NCBI GenBank assembly: GCA_025060305.1
Contig: JANXCD010000005.1
Location: 1 to 36,171, forward strand
DNA from: Armatimonadota bacterium
GTDB lineage: Bacteria; Armatimonadota; Fervidibacteria; Fervidibacterales; Fervidibacteraceae
Reading direction: 5' to 3'
DNA: 36,171 nt
Both the position numbers and the translations under genes were made by a program. Below the pieces are notes generated by a model. That model made no database searches and was not told where the DNA came from. It was given only the letters and a program-made list of their open reading frames with translations. Positions 555 to 33,144 of this stretch are shown here, piece by piece (positions within the stretch are counted from its first letter, which is position 1; the number at the start of each line of letters is the position of its first letter).

Positions 555-616
555 CGCCGTTCACCATCACCGTTTATGCCACATGCGGTTTTTCTCATTT
601 CAGTTGTAGGTTCAGG

Positions 617-669
617 CAAGCCCGCCCGAAAATTTTTCAGGCAGATTTCATCCATCTTGAGTATAGAGC
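617..669. repeat. Dispersed about 55-bp repeat, GATGAAATC hairpin family
   Basis: This intergenic block aligns over its whole length with 27551-27609. Both begin CAAGCC(C/T)GCC, continue with an A/T run ending TTTTTC and a GATTTCATCC core, and end with TTGA(G/A)TATA(G/A)AGCGA. The core on the minus strand, GGATGAAATC, can fold as a short hairpin. It lies between the aldolase stop and the next gene start on the minus strand. Confidence 0.7.
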
Positions 670-688
670 GATTGCTCTTCTGCAAAAA

Positions 689-1967: not shown

Positions 1968-2003
1968 TAGTAGTTTACCTGACATCTTTCCTCAGAAATG
2001 CAA

Positions 2004-2050
2004 AGCGGATGAAATCTGCCTTCATAGTTTCAGGCAAATTTCACCCGCCT
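2004..2050. repeat. Two GATGAAATC-type hairpin repeats
   Basis: Two adjacent units in opposite orientation. The unit at 2004-2020 has GCGGAT and ATCTGC arms around GAA. The unit at 2032-2050 has AGGCAAAT and ACCCGCCT arms around TTC, pairing fully if G-T wobbles are allowed. They belong to the family seen at 617, 10497, 18197, 27551 and 34701. Confidence 0.55.
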
Positions 2051-2157
2051 TTATCCAAGACAAAATTTCCAGTTCGCTGTTGGTAGCCAAACTTTCAGGA
2101 ATACCAACAAGCCATTAAAGAAGCGTCTCTGTCAAAGATATGACTGACTACAGGTGT

Positions 2158-4665: not shown

Positions 4666-4907
4666 TCTCAACACCTCGCTATTGTGCTAAATTTCTGCAA
4701 AGGCATTATTTGCCATAGGAGTTAGACAGTTATAGTATGCTGCACAACAAATTGCAGAAAGAGCAAGTGAACTATGCCTAAAATATGCCCGAAAAAACAG
4801 GGAAGTGCACCGCCTAAATATCCAGTTTCAATCTTTACTCAAAAGTTTGTTGGTGTAACCTCAAGGTCGGACTACTGCTCAACAGAAGAAATCAAGACAG
4901 AAAAAAG

Positions 4908-4980
4908 TCGGCACGCCAGTAGGCGTGCCCTCCGAATTGGCTAAAAATCTCTCGGAGGGCAGGGCTACTGCCCTGCCGAT
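4908..4980. repeat. Head-to-head pair of TACT-loop hairpin repeats
   Basis: Unit 1 (4910-4929, reverse orientation) has stem GGCACGCC/GGCGTGCC around AGTA. Unit 2 (4958-4977, forward) has stem GGCAGGGC/GCCCTGCC around TACT. Both stems are perfect over 8 bp. The outer GGCA/TGCC is the same in both while the inner four pairs differ. Each unit carries a CGGAGG flank on its inner side, so the pair forms a larger inverted repeat. The layout resembles paired REP elements. Confidence 0.8.
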
Positions 4981-5303
4981 AAATCTAACGGCATATTACC
5001 AACACACCTTGAAGTAAAGAGCGTCCAGTTCTTTCTGCAATAAGTAGTGATTCCGCTTATTTTCCTCAAGGCTTTCAAGAAACTCAAACTCATCCATGTC
5101 TATTCAACGCTAAACTGCATCAATCATGTTGACAAAAGACTTAGCGTCGGGTTACTCTTTTATGCTGCACGAAAATTTCTGTCATAAGATTTTGTTGTTC
5201 AGTTAGCAAAGTTTTCTACCGAGAAGTTTTTCAGCAAAGAGCGTTAGACATCGCTCTAAAAAGCGGGACAAAATTTTTCAGGTAACTTTAGGTTTGCCAA
5301 AGG

Positions 5304-6162: not shown

Positions 6163-8079
6163 TTACTTTTTGCTTTCCGGCTTTGTTTCCTTCTTTTGTT
6201 CTGTTGGTGATTTTTCTGGGATTTTTATCAATCTTGCCCTCAAGGGTTCGTCCTTCCAGCGGATAACAGCATCAGCACCTAAAACAACACGAGCCTTGCA
6301 GGCTTCAGGATAAACAATTGCAACTACTGCTTCACCTATATCTTCTTCAAGTCTCACTACTTTTCGTTCAGTTTCAACGATGATTTCACGATGGATTCGG
6401 AAAGTGTCGCCAACCTTAATGCCTTGATTTTGACCGATGTCAATGTAAACGAAAAGGGCGTCTTTTTCGGTTTCAACTCTCCCGACCAATCCTACAACAG
6501 CTTCTGGGACAAAAGGAACCGTAACAGGTGTTGGCAATGCAAATGGGGCAAGCCACTGAATTTCTTCACGCATAGCATTCAAAATTTCAGAAATAGCAGA
6601 AGTTGCAGCAGATGAGAAAAGTTTTTCGTCATTTACGGATGTTGAAACTTGTAGCACAAAAGGCTCAACTCCGTTGTTAAGGGAGGAAATCAGCCCCTCT
6701 TCAAATTTGCGAGTATCTTCAACTATTTCCTTAATTGCCTTTCCAGTCACAACTTTTCTCCATATGACTTCCCCTGTTTGACCGTCATATAGCCATGCTT
6801 GCAACTTTGCAGTTACTGACTCAACACGAATGGTCAAGACTTCCAGAATTGCCTTATCCGTTGATGCTGTTCGCTTCCTTGACAGAACTTGTTGGCGGAC
6901 TGTTTGAGTGTCAAAATCAACCAACCTACCAGATAGAACCAAATTGGCTTCGTTGATTTTTGCTAACTTCGCAATAAGTTGTGGCTCAATATTCCCGTCC
7001 TGAAAAGGAGACCAATCACGAAAAGGATCAAGAGGCTTTATTGGCATGACTGTTTCAGCGGAAAATCCTGCATTCTGAAAGGCTCTGTAAACTTGAGCGG
7101 CGAAATTTCCAACCTGATTGCGATAATAAGCGATATCGCCAAAAGGAACAACGAGCAACTTCTTAACAGAACCAATAACAGGATGAGTGATAACAACTGG
7201 TTCTTGAGGGACACTTAAGATGTCAGGGTAGCGCCTTATAAGCCCTTCCAATGCCTTCGGAAATGAACCGTAAAACAAAACTTGCCAATAGTTTCCACCT
7301 TTGGTTCTTCTAACAGCGACACTTTGATTGGGTGCCAGCAAGTTCAAATTAAAGGGAATCCTTTCACGAACCAAAGAAGGCACAGGTGGAATCAAAAGGT
7401 AGATTTCAGTTTCAGTCAAAAGCAAATCCTGAACCTGAGACAAATTTTCTGGTGTAGTCCAAACGAAATTGAAACTTACTCGCTCTTCAAAGGCATGGAT
7501 AATTTCCTGACCGGCATTTGTGATGACGACGAAAATTGGGACAGGAATCACTTCTTGGAATTTCATGTCAATTGGTGCACGAACTAATCTTCGGGAAAAT
7601 TCTTCAATTGCTTGCTTCAAACCTGAATAGGAAGGTGCAGAGAAGAAAATCCTGTAATAAATGCCCCTTAAGTCTTGCACTGCCTCTGAGGCAATCACAA
7701 CATCCCGATGGCGAATGAGTTTCAAATCAAAAGGAACAATTTGGCTATGCTCAACTGCCAAATCGCTTCTCGCACGGTCAATAAGGACAACTATGCTCCT
7801 TCCAGCAGTTGTCAACTCATTTATGCGTAAGGGCAACTCTTTTAAAGGCACAAACTCAGCAATGTGGAAGGGCGGTAGATAAGTTCGGAACAAATTGAAA
7901 AGAGTCTCATCATTGGCTATAACAAACATAGGTGTTTGAGCCAAAAACTCAATAGCAGGTCTCGGCTCTTTCAAGGCTTTCCCAATGTCTTTAAAAAAGA
8001 TGTCTTGCTGGGCTGAGGATAAAAATGTTAGCGACAAAGTCCAAAGTGCAACCACACCTAAGCAAACTCTTCGTCTCAT
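6163..8079 (-). CDS. Secreted multidomain protein, paralogue 1 (internal repeat + CsgG-like + FlgT-C-like)
   Basis: 638 residues. A signal peptide covers 1-23 (cut near SSA/QQ). Two related alpha/beta units follow, at about 49-166 and 180-284. They share the order P-(M/I)-FV, a helix, (I/V)(Y/V)(L/V)LI, PF(D/N)L(K/N)L, and Y(Y/W)(R/Q)(I/V)(F/L)F followed by a (G/A)L..(A/L)I..(F/Y) helix. Residues 305-510 start LLVVPFGDI and include LVLSGRLVDFD and YDGQTGEVIW, the pattern of CsgG/TolB-N-like periplasmic domains. Residues about 527-610 (VYIDIGQNQGIKVGDTFRI and GEAVVAIVYPEACKARVV) resemble the FlgT C-terminal domain. The tail is basic and low-complexity. The start is set by GGAGGTGG about 8 bases upstream. 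It is the downstream member of a tandem pair with the gene at 8296-10242. Domain names are by pattern only; the N-terminal half is unfamiliar to me. Confidence 0.85.
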   Translation of the reverse strand: MRRRVCLGVVALWTLSLTFLSSAQQDIFFKDIGKALKEPRPAIEFLAQTPMFVIANDETLFNLFRTYLPPFHIAEFVPLKELPLRINELTTAGRSIVVLIDRARSDLAVEHSQIVPFDLKLIRHRDVVIASEAVQDLRGIYYRIFFSAPSYSGLKQAIEEFSRRLVRAPIDMKFQEVIPVPIFVVITNAGQEIIHAFEERVSFNFVWTTPENLSQVQDLLLTETEIYLLIPPVPSLVRERIPFNLNLLAPNQSVAVRRTKGGNYWQVLFYGSFPKALEGLIRRYPDILSVPQEPVVITHPVIGSVKKLLVVPFGDIAYYRNQVGNFAAQVYRAFQNAGFSAETVMPIKPLDPFRDWSPFQDGNIEPQLIAKLAKINEANLVLSGRLVDFDTQTVRQQVLSRKRTASTDKAILEVLTIRVESVTAKLQAWLYDGQTGEVIWRKVVTGKAIKEIVEDTRKFEEGLISSLNNGVEPFVLQVSTSVNDEKLFSSAATSAISEILNAMREEIQWLAPFALPTPVTVPFVPEAVVGLVGRVETEKDALFVYIDIGQNQGIKVGDTFRIHREIIVETERKVVRLEEDIGEAVVAIVYPEACKARVVLGADAVIRWKDEPLRARLIKIPEKSPTEQKKETKPESKK

Positions 8080-8236
8080 TAACAAGCCACCTCCAAAAAT
8101 TTGAGCAACGCTCTTCAATTTGTTTAGCGCACCTTGAGATCAAACTCCTAACCGAAAGAAAAATTAACGCTACGCTAATAGCGCTTTCAAATTTATCAGC
8201 AAATACAAGTTAATGCTTGCCAGGCAAATTTACCGT

Positions 8237-8295: not shown

Positions 8296-10242
8296 CTATT
8301 GCTTGCCTTCATCAGGAGCGGGCAAGATTGGTGGAGAAGATTTTTGCTCAGTTTGCTTTTCACTTTCAGGCTGAGTTCCCTTTAGCCTTTCTGAAGGCAT
8401 TTTTTCTGGCGTCTTTGTTAGTCTTGCCCTCAAGGCGACGTCCTTCCATCGGGCAACGGCATCAGCGCCAATAATCACACGAGCCTTACAGGCTTCAGGG
8501 TAAACATTCACCACTATTGCTTCACCTAAGTCTTCTTCCAGCCTTACTGCTTTTCGCCCAGTCTTAACGATGACCTCACGGTAAATGCGAAAATTGTCGC
8601 CGATTTTTATTCCCTGATTTTGCCCAATGTCAATATAGACAAAGACCGAATCTTTGTCAACCTCAACAGCGCCGATCAAACCTTCAATGATAGTCGGTGC
8701 TACCTTGACAACTAAGGGTGAAGTGGGTTGGGAGAGCCAGTGAATTTCTTCTCTCATTGTTGTCAAAAGTTCAACGATGGCAGCAGTTGCTGCCGAAGGG
8801 TAAAGTTTTTCGTCGGAGATAAACATGGAAATTCGGTCAGGCTGGAGTGTTGGTGGTTTCGCTGCTTCAACCTGACGGGTGCTTTCAACAGATTCCTTCG
8901 TTGCTGTGGCTGTGGTTGTTTTTGACCAAATGAGTTCACCTGTTTGACCTTCATAGAGCCAAACTTGCAAGCGGGCAGTTGCGCTTTCAATTCTGATAGT
9001 CTTGATTTCCCAGATTTTCATGTCTGCTGCAGGACTTGGTCTGCTTGACAACCTTTGAGTCCGAACTGATTGAGTATCAAAGCCACTCAATTTACCAGTC
9101 AAAATCAAATCTGCTTTGTTGGCTTTCGCTAACTCAAGGATATACTTTCGCTCAACTGTGCCATCTTGGAAAGGAGACCAATCATAGAGCGGTTCTGGAG
9201 GTTTAGTGGGCATTAGGGTTTCGTTGGCGAACCTTTCGTTTTGAACTGCATTGAACACTTGAGCAGCGAAATCGCCCACTCGGTCACGGTAATAAACGAT
9301 GTCGCCGAAAGGAACGACAATCAAACGCTCAACATTACCGATGACAGGGTGAGTTATCACCAAAGGTTCTTCAGGGACATTTGAAATGTCAGAGTATCGT
9401 CTCAAAAGCCCATTCAAAGCCTGAGGAAAGGCTCCATAAAACAAAACCTGCCAATAGTTACCGCCCTTGTTTTTCCGAACAGCAACACTCTGATTGGGAG
9501 CAAGGAGTTTCAAGTTGAAGGGTAATCGTTCCTGAATTGAAACAGGTGCAGGAGGAAGCAAAAGGTAGATTTCGGTTTCAGTTACAAGCAAATCTTGAAC
9601 TCGTGAAATTGTTTCTGGAGTAGCCCAAACGAAGTTGACATTTGTTCGCTCAGCAAAAGCATTGACAATTTCTTGTCCGCCATTTGTTATGACAACACAA
9701 ATCGGAATAGGGGTTGCTTCCCTCATCCTCATGTCTCTCGGCTCACGGACTAATCGCATGCAAAATCGTTCAATAGCGTTCTTCAAGCCAGCATAGGAAG
9801 GGGCGGAGATGAAAACTCGGTAACGAGTGCCTTTTGAATCTCGCAAAACATCGCAAGCGATGATAACATCTTGGCGACGAATGAGGGTCAAGTCATAAGG
9901 GACAACATGTCTTTGCTCAATTGTCAAGTCGCCTCGTGAACGGTCAACGATGACTACAACGCTCCGCTCAGTGGCAATTAACTCTTCAATCCGAAAACTT
10001 AAGTCTTTCAATGACACGAATTCGGCTGCATGGACTGGTGGCATATAGGTGCGGAAAAGGTTAAAAAGAGTTTCGTCGTTAGTCACAATGAACATAGGTG
10101 TTTGAGCCAAAAGTCCCGCTGCAGGGCGTGGCTCTTTTAAGGCTCTTGCAATGTCTCTTAAGATGTCCCTTTGCGCAGCAGAAAAGGAAAGTAACGAGAT
10201 CGCAATGAATGTTAGCGCTGTCAACTGAATCCATCGCTTCAT
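8296..10242 (-). CDS. Secreted multidomain protein, paralogue 2 (internal repeat + CsgG-like + FlgT-C-like)
   Basis: 648 residues, collinear with the gene at 6163-8079 and very similar throughout, for example KEPRPA, AQTPMF and NDETLFNLFRTY near the start and YIDIGQNQGIK near the end. It has the same architecture: signal peptide, two duplicated alpha/beta units, a CsgG/TolB-N-like domain (VVPFGDIVYYRDRVGDF, LILTGKLSGFD, YEGQTGELIW), a FlgT-C-like domain and a low-complexity tail. The tail is longer here and rich in Glu, Lys and Pro. The copies differ most at the linker before ISDEKLYPSAAT. GGAGGTGG lies 8 bases before the ATG at 10242. The gene is divergent from the membrane protein at 10677. 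The function is unknown to me; a periplasmic or outer-membrane envelope role is inferred from the domains. Confidence 0.85.
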   Translation of the reverse strand: MKRWIQLTALTFIAISLLSFSAAQRDILRDIARALKEPRPAAGLLAQTPMFIVTNDETLFNLFRTYMPPVHAAEFVSLKDLSFRIEELIATERSVVVIVDRSRGDLTIEQRHVVPYDLTLIRRQDVIIACDVLRDSKGTRYRVFISAPSYAGLKNAIERFCMRLVREPRDMRMREATPIPICVVITNGGQEIVNAFAERTNVNFVWATPETISRVQDLLVTETEIYLLLPPAPVSIQERLPFNLKLLAPNQSVAVRKNKGGNYWQVLFYGAFPQALNGLLRRYSDISNVPEEPLVITHPVIGNVERLIVVPFGDIVYYRDRVGDFAAQVFNAVQNERFANETLMPTKPPEPLYDWSPFQDGTVERKYILELAKANKADLILTGKLSGFDTQSVRTQRLSSRPSPAADMKIWEIKTIRIESATARLQVWLYEGQTGELIWSKTTTATATKESVESTRQVEAAKPPTLQPDRISMFISDEKLYPSAATAAIVELLTTMREEIHWLSQPTSPLVVKVAPTIIEGLIGAVEVDKDSVFVYIDIGQNQGIKIGDNFRIYREVIVKTGRKAVRLEEDLGEAIVVNVYPEACKARVIIGADAVARWKDVALRARLTKTPEKMPSERLKGTQPESEKQTEQKSSPPILPAPDEGKQ

Positions 10243-10286
10243 TGACAAACCACCTCCGTCATGAAAGAAAAAAGCCAACTACCAAT

Positions 10287-10439: not shown

Positions 10440-10487
10440 ATAGGCTTCAGCCCATATTCGCTGATAAAGGGCAGGTGAAACCTGCCC
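10440..10487. repeat. Two dispersed hairpin repeats
   Basis: ATAGGC/GCCCAT around TTCA (10440-10455, one mismatch) resembles the ACAGGC-type hairpins at 33030 and 33178. GGGCAGG/CCTGCCC around TGAAA (10469-10487) is a perfect 7-bp stem related to the GATGAAATC family. Confidence 0.5.
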
Positions 10488-10496
10488 AAAATTTGC

Positions 10497-10517
10497 AAGC
10501 GTATTTCATCCGTCCTT
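10497..10517. repeat. Degenerate GATGAAATC-type repeat
   Basis: AAGCG-TATTTCATCCGTCCTT keeps the TTTCATCCGTCCTT half of the family, as at 34707-34721, but its other arm is partly lost. Confidence 0.4.
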
Positions 10518-10676
10518 ACAACACAAATTTTCGCCAAATAAATTCGGCGCTTATAAATCCGTTATCAATCACCAGATAAAGCCAATGGCATATGCAAAAG
10601 AGCACCCGAAAACTTTTTGTAGTGAAGAGCGAAACACTGGTTATCCGGTGACAAAATTCCATCGGTGAATAAAGAC

Positions 10677-27077: not shown

Positions 27078-27530
27078 ATGAACGCCGAGAGACCGCCAGA
27101 CACTTTGGCGAAATTCACAAAAGTTTTCGTTTACCGTCAGTCGGCGGTTAGACCATACTGGCTTGCTTGTGCTGCTGTCGTAGTCATGATGGTCTTTTTC
27201 CTTTGGGTTTTCGCTCAGTGGGAAAGTTTGACCTTTTCTGTTTTGGTCTTGCTTTCGTTGCCAGTGGCTTTGGTTTTCGCTTTCACTGTCTACCTTTGGC
27301 TCTTGAGCAAAACAGCGATGTTGGTCGTTACCGAACACGGAGTAGTTTACAGCGACCGATGGGTCAAGCGAGCCCTTTTGTGGAGCGAAATTGATGCCAT
27401 CACCAACTACTCAATTCGCAGCAAAATTGGCAAGAACATTGCCCTTAGACTTGGTCTCAAAGCCATTGAAAACTGGCAAGAATTGGTCAACATAGCCCGT
27501 GAGTTTAGCGATGCGAGAATTTTGGTTTGA
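27078..27530 (+). CDS. Small membrane protein with PH-like cytoplasmic domain
   Basis: 150 residues. Two transmembrane helices (about 25-46 and 53-75) are followed by a small beta-rich domain at about 83-150 (MLVVTEHGVVYSDRW, LLWSEIDAI and IALRLGLKAIENW), the pattern of bacterial PH-like membrane proteins. GGGAGGGGA lies 4 bases before the ATG. It starts 1 base after argF and is clearly cotranscribed, but no functional tie to arginine synthesis is known to me. The DUF is not identified. Confidence 0.75.
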   Translation: MNAERPPDTLAKFTKVFVYRQSAVRPYWLACAAVVVMMVFFLWVFAQWESLTFSVLVLLSLPVALVFAFTVYLWLLSKTAMLVVTEHGVVYSDRWVKRALLWSEIDAITNYSIRSKIGKNIALRLGLKAIENWQELVNIAREFSDARILV

Positions 27531-27550
27531 TGCCGTCATAAATTCTCGTT

Positions 27551-27609
27551 CAAGCCTGCCTGAAATTTTTCGTGCTGATTTCATCCGCCAAACTTTGAAT
27601 ATAAAGCGA
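27551..27609. repeat. Dispersed about 58-bp repeat overlapping a gene end
   Basis: Aligns end to end with 617-669. On the minus strand it supplies the last codons (ALYSKFGG) and the TGA stop of the secreted protein gene at 27581-28543. The GGCGGAT and ATCAGC arms around GAA form an imperfect hairpin. Confidence 0.7.
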
Positions 27610-28543
27610 GGTCAAACTTGGCTTCAACTTTCATTTGGAAAGAGGGAGCAGGCATTTGAGTTGAAGGTGGCGGTTGTTGACTTTGATTTTGTTGTTGCGC
27701 TTGTTGCTGATTTTGTTGACCTTCTTCGCCCTGTTCACCTTCTTCATTTTGACTTTGTTCTTGCTTTGAGTTTGCATCTTGGTTTGTTTGAGTGACAGGA
27801 ATTTTTGTCCCCACTTCCAACTTGATTGAGCCTGAAGCGGAAATTGTCCGTCCCTCTGCGATGCTGAAGACCACTTCGCTTTCGGCACTGTAACGAGCAG
27901 TGAAGTTCCATTGAGAACGCAAAGTCGGGTCAACTAAAGCATCAATAGGCAATAGGTAACGGAGTCGCAATTTAATAGGCTGAAGTCTTGGTGGAAGGTT
28001 AGCAGGTTGTTCAACGCACTGGACTGTCGCCAAAGTTATCGTCGCACCCAATTGGTGAACACCTTGCCAAGCATCACCAATTTGCACGCCTTCTTTAGGG
28101 AACGGAACGACAAGGGCAGCAAGGGCTATCGCCATAAGGTCAAAGTTGGCAACAAGTTCGTCAAGGGAACGAGCACCTCCACCCATGATGTCAAGGATTT
28201 CGCCTGTCGGAGTCGTAACGAAAGTTAATTGAACCCATCCGAGTTTTTGAATTTGCTCGCCTACGGAAGAGAAAACTCTCAATTTACCGCCTTTGATGGT
28301 CAAATCGCATTTCAACTTATCGCCTAACTTTTGCCATTTTTGCTCAATTTCAATTGCTGCGCCCAACTGTGCGAACCAGAAAAATCCGCTCGCTTCCATT
28401 TGAATTTCGCCGTTAATGAGCAGTCGGTAAGAAGACACTTGACCAACTGCTGGCAAGTAAGAGGGTTTATGCAAAGGCTTTTGGGTTATGCCGAGCGCAA
28501 CTGATAAATTCAAGCAAGTCACAAATGCCAATAAACGCTGCAA
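27581..28543 (-). CDS. Secreted DUF6263-like protein with Gln-rich region
   Basis: 320 residues from the TTG at 28543, which has AAGGAGG about 9 bases upstream. An ATG at 28582 overlaps the previous stop (TAATG) and would add 13 residues but has no SD. A signal peptide lies at 1-18. A beta-rich domain follows with VGQVSSYRLLINGEI, GEILDIMGG and VPFPKEGVQIGDAWQG. The same order of elements occurs in the neighbouring upstream gene, so the two are probably paralogues. Residues about 255-300 are Glu/Gln-rich low complexity (GEQGEEGQQNQQQAQQQ). The C-terminus lies in a dispersed repeat. The DUF6263 label is by pattern only, and the function is unknown. Confidence 0.7.
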   Translation of the reverse strand: MQRLLAFVTCLNLSVALGITQKPLHKPSYLPAVGQVSSYRLLINGEIQMEASGFFWFAQLGAAIEIEQKWQKLGDKLKCDLTIKGGKLRVFSSVGEQIQKLGWVQLTFVTTPTGEILDIMGGGARSLDELVANFDLMAIALAALVVPFPKEGVQIGDAWQGVHQLGATITLATVQCVEQPANLPPRLQPIKLRLRYLLPIDALVDPTLRSQWNFTARYSAESEVVFSIAEGRTISASGSIKLEVGTKIPVTQTNQDANSKQEQSQNEEGEQGEEGQQNQQQAQQQNQSQQPPPSTQMPAPSFQMKVEAKFDLALYSKFGG

Positions 28544-28581
28544 AATAAGCAACCTCCTTGCCTTCTTGAAGGACGAAGGCA

Positions 28582-29505
28582 TTAGGACTTGATAGAAACC
28601 AATTCGGTGACGCTTTTGACCTGAGTTTGCGCTTGTAAACTCATGATACCGCCACCAACATTTTCAGGCATTTGAATGACGACGCTCATTTTTGTCTCAG
28701 TGTTGACCTCGCTTTTAGAGATTAGCCCTTTTGCTAAATCAAACCAATATTTGGTGTTGGCTTTCGTTCCGCCTTTCGCTTGAAGGTCAATGCCCATTTC
28801 CTTTAACATCGGAAGTTTGCTCACAAGTTCGCCAATTTCAGGGACTTCGCTTTGGACTTCAACAACAGCAAGTTCATCGTTTCCCTTCCGTTCAATACAA
28901 GTCAACTTGCCTTTGTTGGAAATTTTTGCCGAAGCAGGTTGAGAGCCGGGCAAAGGCACAGGGACAGTTCCTGTTGACTCCCAATTCTCTCCGACTTTAA
29001 CTGACTTTGGCGGCAAGTTAGGTTGGAACAAAGCCCATGCATTTGCGCTAAAGACAAGGGCTTGCAACGGGTCTTGTAGAAACTCAAATTGCTCAATTGG
29101 TTTTTCGCCTTCCAATTTCAACGGTTTAATCTCGGCGATTTGCCCATCGGGTTTCAATTTCATCAAGAGCCTAACTGTCGGAACCTTTTGCTCATTCGTT
29201 TGCGAACCACTTGTGGACATCAAAAGCCCCATCTTCCCGCTCACTGTTACGATTAAAGTTGCGGTCCCATCATCAGCAACTTCTTTGATGACTTCCTCTT
29301 TGGTCAACTCGCCCTTGAATTGCAAATCGGTAGCGACACCGATTTCGCTGATCAAATTAACTTTGCCCTCAAGATTGACTTTGTAATTTACGGTTTGACC
29401 TTGTTGATAACGAAGCCTCAAGGAAAACTCCTGCTGCTCATCAGCGAAAATCAAACCGCCCAACAATGCAAGCAACCCTAACAAAAAGAATTTGCCTAAC
29501 TTCAT
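28582..29505 (-). CDS. Secreted DUF6263-like protein
   Basis: 307 residues. The start at ATG 29505 is preferred because GGAGGG lies 6 bases upstream; an ATG at 29511 directly abuts that SD. The signal peptide MKLGKFFLLGLLALLGGLIFA is cut near residue 21. The mature protein is a beta-rich domain: LRYQQGQTVNYKVNLEG near the N-terminus, DGQIAEIKPL in the middle, then VKVGENWEST, ELAVVEVQSEV and a TKYWFDLAKGLISKSEV ending strand pair. That final 'T..WFDL..G.i' element is common in DUF6263-type secreted proteins. It lies upstream of, and touches, the paralogue at 27581-28543. It may be a lipoprotein-like scaffold, but there is no lipobox. Confidence 0.75.
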   Translation of the reverse strand: MKLGKFFLLGLLALLGGLIFADEQQEFSLRLRYQQGQTVNYKVNLEGKVNLISEIGVATDLQFKGELTKEEVIKEVADDGTATLIVTVSGKMGLLMSTSGSQTNEQKVPTVRLLMKLKPDGQIAEIKPLKLEGEKPIEQFEFLQDPLQALVFSANAWALFQPNLPPKSVKVGENWESTGTVPVPLPGSQPASAKISNKGKLTCIERKGNDELAVVEVQSEVPEIGELVSKLPMLKEMGIDLQAKGGTKANTKYWFDLAKGLISKSEVNTETKMSVVIQMPENVGGGIMSLQAQTQVKSVTELVSIKS

Positions 29506-29619
29506 GTTCATCCCTCCAACGAAGTTCTTAGGTTTTTCAATCCACCTTGAAAATTTTTTCGTGCCGAAAATTTAGACGCAAGATTGTCATCTGCGACAAA
29601 CTTGCTTTGGTGATGAAGG

Positions 29620-33064: not shown

Positions 33065-33122
33065 GGTCGGGCGGTAGCCTGACCTTCCGAAAGAATTCGG
33101 AGGGCAAGCCTACTGGCTTGCC
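33065..33122. repeat. Head-to-head pair of TACT-loop hairpin repeats
   Basis: Unit 3 (33065-33084, reverse) has stem GGTCGGGC/GCCTGACC around GGTA, with one G-T pair. Unit 4 (33103-33122, forward) has a perfect stem GGCAAGCC/GGCTTGCC around TACT. The inner flanks TTCCGAA and TTCGGAG face each other, as in the pair at 4908-4980. Unit 4 is followed by GAATTTTT, so it could also act as a terminator. Confidence 0.8.
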
Positions 33123-33144
33123 GAATTTTTCCGTCTTGATTTTC

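Follow-up and report, generated by a model that had tools for sequence, protein, structure and literature searches.

The last eight codons and the stop codon of a gene for a secreted protein were found to lie in one end of a MITE, a non-autonomous transposon with REP-like hairpins. The gene belongs to a 36,171-nucleotide stretch of an Armatimonadota draft genome, referred to here as the window. Very likely, a MITE end, probably mobilised by an IS1595-family transposase, landed in or joined the last codons of the gene, now gives the protein its C-terminus and stop, and has since decayed. The element family is new; the kind of event is already known from other bacteria and is unusually clear here.

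The host gene (27581..28582, minus strand) encodes a secreted protein of unknown function of 333 amino acids, with an apparent signal peptide and a Q/P-rich linker before a conserved AKFDL. A sequence-only reading of this DNA had placed the gene at 27581-28543. Its end stood, and its start was moved because the longest open reading frame begins with the ATG at 28582, the TTG at 28543 being only an alternative. The claim that a repeated block supplies the last eight codons and the stop agreed with the translation, in which ALYSKFGG is encoded at 27584..27607 (minus strand) and the TGA occupies 27581-27583. The start codon lies one base into the stop of the upstream gene (28582..29511, minus strand), and the pair is conserved in the relative G002. 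The products of these two adjacent genes, which overlap by one base, are both secreted proteins and are weakly similar (22% alike over 142 amino acids, E 0.003). The convergent neighbour, a membrane protein gene behind argF (27078..27530, plus strand), has a native C-terminus of its own. No close relatives of the host protein were found in a search of the contig collection. Elsewhere in the window, the adjoining open reading frames 6163-8118 (651 amino acids) and 8296-10278 (660 amino acids) share about 75% DNA identity over long stretches and represent a tandem gene duplication.

Orthologues of the host protein were compared in four relatives: G001 (64% identical), G002 (50%), G003 (43%), and G004 (27%). 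The window's own draft genome, G000, measures 2.0 Mb and is about 62-63% complete, and G001 is also about 62% complete. Immediately before the stop, the orthologues read AKFDLVPAQ in G001, AKFDLLPAR in G002, and AEFQLIKLE in the distant G004; the G003 orthologue is cut by a contig end and has no C-terminus to compare. The window protein matches the orthologues through AKFDL and then continues with ALYSKFGG, so that it ends in AKFDLALYSKFGG. At the junction, G001 reads GACCTTGTGCCTGCCCAGTGA and the window reads GACCT/CGCTTTATATTCAAAGTTTGGCGGATGA, where the slash marks the boundary. DNA homology to the orthologues ends at the repeat start (GACCT/CGCTTTATATTCAAAG, with the junction GACCT/CGCT). 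With a model of the terminal inverted repeat (TIR), no terminal repeat was detected at the end of the host gene in G001 or G002. ALYSKFGG was absent from the ends in G001, G002, and G004, and none of these orthologues had the same C-terminus without repeat-like DNA. The element thus supplies C-terminal codons and a stop that are both absent from the orthologues. One of two options raised from the sequence alone, that the repeat replaced the original C-terminus, is supported, since the repeat-free orthologues have different and shorter ends and homology stops at the repeat boundary.

The block at 27551-27609 belongs, in degenerate form, to a repeat family found throughout the genome. Its alignment with an intergenic segment, described earlier as 617-669, was recovered as a local alignment with 617-671 that scores 47 with short gaps. 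For comparison, 59-mers drawn at random from the window averaged 25.5 when aligned to the remainder of it, and of 300 only a few reached at least 38. A 19-mer from the repeat tail, with up to 3 mismatches allowed, matched the window twice, at these same two sites, where 0.01 matches were expected. When the block was used as a query against the whole genome, 22 further matches were obtained, the best of which (L002, E 1.1e-5) covered almost its full length. A covariance model of the hairpin part gave 148 matches at about 100 places, with 150 of the 1705 candidates scored. The window copy reached 39.8 bits with this model (E 3.4e-8, match spanning 27538-27594), a somewhat favourable value because the 39 copies used to build the model include it; the direct match to L002 is independent of the model. 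One query, a 77-nt consensus, was partly built from the window copy, and its E-value for that copy was therefore not taken as independent evidence.

Membership in the family held for the block as first delimited, and its extent was corrected to about 27541-27608. This truncated and decayed MITE copy (27541..27608, minus strand) contains, in the direction of the gene, a terminal repeat, a REP hairpin, a spacer, and half of a second REP hairpin. The left half and the target duplication are missing, and the best full-length relative is L002. The terminal inverted repeat has the contracted form CGCTTTATATTCAAAGT (27592..27608, minus strand), and its first base is the end of the orthologue homology. 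It differs from ACTTTGAGTATAGAGC by 2 mismatches, matches the TIR consensus at 90%, and is not significant alone against the full-length-TIR model (E 2.1); it was assigned as a putative terminal repeat via the adjoining REP hairpin and the contracted copies L002, L008, and 617-671. The REP-type hairpin GGCGGATGAAATCAGCAC (27573..27590, minus strand) has the loop TGA, which is the stop codon of the gene. Alignment of copies located the remaining arm of the second REP hairpin, CAAGCCTGCCTGAAA, at 27551..27565 (plus strand). The window hairpin folds no better than shuffled sequences (z-score -0.36), indicating that this copy has decayed, and a functional hairpin in it was rejected on the same score. 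Further copies in the window are a second contracted-terminus copy (605..671, plus strand), which is intergenic and lies 18 nt past the stop of the gene that ends at 689, and two REP doublets found with the covariance model (2000..2055, minus strand, E 9e-12; 10464..10519, plus strand, E 4e-15).

What the sequence-only reading had missed is that a MITE, bounded by terminal inverted repeats and 8-bp target duplications, ends in this repeat. The consensus of 39 aligned copies, GTAGGGGCAGGTGAAACCTGCCCGAAATTTTTCGGGCGGATTTCATCCGCCCCTAC, consists of two GTAG-tagged hairpins in inverted orientation, which is the REP-doublet layout of GTAG REPs and REPINs. In these hairpins, 84.6% and 81.0% of cells are paired, and the fold of the consensus is very stable (-40.5 kcal/mol, z -8.3). 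The right part, AACTTTGAGTATAGAGCG, forms a module of its own, with 54 matches compared to 20 for the reversed pattern. It belongs to a MITE with the termini CGCTCTTTACT...TTGTTGGT, whose terminal inverted repeats are CGCTCTTTACTYCAAAGTTTGTTGGT and its complement, and represents one of the two. Complete copies are about 150-300 bp long. They have terminal inverted repeats of about 25 bp and target duplications of 8 bp, and often enclose GTAG-type REP hairpins. The distance between the members of candidate TIR pairs is 147-500 bp, mostly 150-300, and the hairpins between them differ, the REP doublet being a frequent one. The flanks of these pairs agree over exactly 8 bp (67% identity, with 31% after shuffling; perfect in 6 of 31); other duplication lengths from 2 to 11 bp gave at most 41% identity. 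The elements are therefore MITEs: short, multicopy, and devoid of a transposase gene, with terminal inverted repeats and a target duplication of fixed length. Because the window copy keeps one contracted end, the target duplication and the TIR pair were shown on complete copies only. One of these is in the window (4829..5023, plus strand); it measures 195 bp, has both terminal repeats, and is flanked by TCCAGTTT and TCCAGTTC, which are alike at 7 of 8 bases. The strong inverted repeats at 4902-4979 form its internal hairpins, and a related piece lies at 33094-33130. A 209-bp MITE at another locus (L023, 1229-1437) has the same terminal repeats and a perfect 8-bp duplication around a different palindromic filling of GCACTCCGC-type repeats, which suggests that the interior is exchangeable. 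A correctly facing TIR was present within 150 bp of 29 of the 105 REP doublets (28%), compared to 4% at random places.

The TIR profile matched at least 146 times in G000, 14 times in G001, at least 150 times in G004, and not at all in G002 or G003; the REP doublets follow the same pattern across the five genomes. The exact TIR is present in two Armatimonadetes draft genomes, SKYB128 and SKW126. In SKYB128 (L209, 3273-3816), a remnant of an IS1595 transposase (PF12762, DDE_Tnp_IS1595, 46 bits) is followed by the MITE terminus GGTATAATTTTGTTTGTTTT...CCAACAAATTTTTGAGTATAGAGCG, and a locus in the window's own genome (L048) keeps the same IS end of about 90 bp without the gene. Members of IS1595 usually make 8-bp duplications (PMC8101967), the length seen for the MITE. 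Since the remnant shares the terminus, the own-genome locus keeps the same IS end, and the duplications agree, an IS1595-family transposase is the likely mobiliser, though this is not proven and draws on a single remnant from another MAG and a single IS end in the own genome. No intact IS1595 element or transposase was found among the loci examined around repeat matches. A parent of the ISL3 family, which the 8-bp duplications and the CTCTTT-like terminus had brought to mind, was rejected because PF01610 is absent from G000-G004.

The new gene end probably arose as follows. A MITE copy inserted into the final codons, directly behind the conserved AKFDL, or was joined there by a rearrangement. 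Translation now enters the terminal repeat, in which no frame has a stop, and ends at the TGA in the loop of the first REP hairpin; the old last three or four residues and stop have been lost, with ALYSKFGG in their place. The far half of the MITE would have been lost later, and the remainder would have decayed. The ALYSKFGG tail is probably neutral, since protein ends tolerate change and the element brings stops close to its edge.

Both direct insertion followed by loss of the other half and a rearrangement fusing the gene with a MITE already in place are possible. In the latter case, a deletion or inversion would have joined the secreted-protein pair to a MITE residing elsewhere, for example behind the argF cluster, and the repeat would have come to serve as the end of the truncated gene. 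The absence of half the MITE and of any duplication fits this view. In G002, a different gene (L086) comes after the argF-membrane-protein pair, and the two secreted-protein genes are located on a separate contig (L026); in the window the two pairs meet at the repeat, which places the repeat at a synteny breakpoint. However, gene order behind the host gene differs between G001 and G002 as well, so the breakpoint is unspecific. The boundary also falls on the very first base of the terminal repeat, as expected from insertion but not from random fusion. Direct insertion is favoured for this reason, and we regard a rearrangement as a conceivable but rather unlikely origin.

Another possible explanation is that the repeat is a REPIN, a GTAG-type REP doublet moved by a RAYT, and that the terminal repeats are unrelated neighbours. 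The consensus does have GTAG/CTAC ends and two inverted hairpins, and GTAG REPs elsewhere often supply the stop codons of ORFs (PMC3733652). RAYT genes exist in two relatives, G002 (L109, 1384-1908) and G004 (L110, 1384-1842), but G002 lacks this repeat family. None was found in G000, G001, or G003, of which G000 and G001 are incomplete at about 62-63%. The presence of a RAYT thus does not track the repeat, and a RAYT as sole mobiliser was rejected, since no RAYT was found in the incomplete G000 and G001 and the RAYT-bearing G002 has no REP doublets. In addition, copy number goes with the TIR family across the five genomes, and the part encoding ALYSKF is outside the REP hairpin, in the terminal repeat. 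The REPIN explanation is consequently improbable.

The other option raised earlier, settling of the element at gene ends, finds support as a tendency. Where a REP doublet partly overlaps a gene (eight cases), the overlap always falls at the stop end and never at the start. Of the outer TIR ends, 18 of 43 have a stop less than 20 nt away, compared with 1 of 47 for starts (Fisher P 2.5e-6); these gene ends come from a simple codon-usage gene caller, for which starts are less certain than stops and starts overlapping elements may be under-called. Two further proteins also appear to end in MITE-encoded residues. A RluD-like pseudouridine synthase (L177) ends in LYAQKVFEQDW inside a TIR and GTAG, with the stop from the GTAG, and a GHMP-type kinase (L008) ends in GAYAQVCG in a TIR and REP, with the stop from the hairpin loop. 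Homology to PDB structures ends at residue 328 of 335 in the former and at 350 of 358 in the latter, about where the element begins, which supports element-made ends for both. The rsmG product (L179, ending GGNG) and a small protein (L013, ending SRDR) also terminate inside the element. From the outer edge inward, all three frames of the TIR lack stops, and the REP gives TAG at nt 2-4 and TGA at nt 12-14, so insertions into last codons yield short tails.

The clustering behind stops, together with the very stable fold of the consensus, could mean that the element is kept at gene ends for a function as a terminator, mRNA stabiliser, or translation brake, as with E. coli REPs near stops, which lower translation when less than 16 nt from the stop (as reported in PMC12306157). 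But the window copy no longer folds, and selection against insertions near starts or inside genes explains the clustering without a function. A retained function of this kind is therefore doubtful. Such selection is sufficient to account for the stop bias without targeting, and the strength of the clustering makes targeting versus selection testable. A promoter role for the tail was rejected, since each of the two window copies abuts the 3' end of a minus-strand gene and element ends lie more often near stops than near starts. We also entertain, as a speculative and quite unlikely reading, that the MITE acts as a portable gene-end cassette, with its open TIR, TAG and TGA within 14 nt, and a possible terminator, by which insertions into last codons would be repaired at once. 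If this were true, gene ends made by the element would be expected repeatedly throughout the genome and the phylum, and protein C-termini would be renewed by them. Finally, the degenerate state and poor folding of the copy would fit a chance resemblance or convergent drift, in which the gene lost its stop and was extended into unrelated repeat-like intergenic DNA, but this is extremely improbable given the hairpin-model and genome matches (E 3.4e-8 and 1.1e-5), the boundary at the end of orthologue homology, and the replacement of residues before the old stop as well.

This gene provides a clean, orthologue-tested example of a small mobile element writing the C-terminus and stop codon of a protein. 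Such elements appear little described in the host phylum, and a literature search for Fervidibacter and transposable elements found nothing. The MITE resembles IS1595 members in its 8-bp target duplications and in sharing its terminus with an IS1595 remnant, and differs from them in having no transposase gene and no intact IS found. With GTAG REPs and REPINs it shares GTAG ends, inverted doublets, location behind genes, and stops for flanking ORFs (PMC3733652, PMC3116915), the TAG stops in particular being given to ORFs by GTAG REPs (PMC3733652). In contrast to those systems, the hairpins here are often enclosed in a MITE bounded by TIRs and 8-bp duplications, and a search of the incomplete genome gave no RAYT. 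REP-like hairpins, which are usually tied to RAYTs, are thereby linked to a TIR-bounded MITE with IS1595-like features. In Coxiella burnetii, QMITE1 and QMITE2, which are other MITE families with other termini, likewise overlap the 3' ends of functional genes, and in one strain the last 33 residues of enhC come from a MITE (PMC5896051). The RU-1 small mobile sequences of enterobacteria are also fused to gene 3' ends, as in the amidase ECA3499 (PMC2759123). RU-1 is an unrelated element of 127 bp in other hosts and adds a 35-residue tail in the amidase case, but there, as here, a small mobile repeat replaces the normal stop and encodes a new C-terminus.
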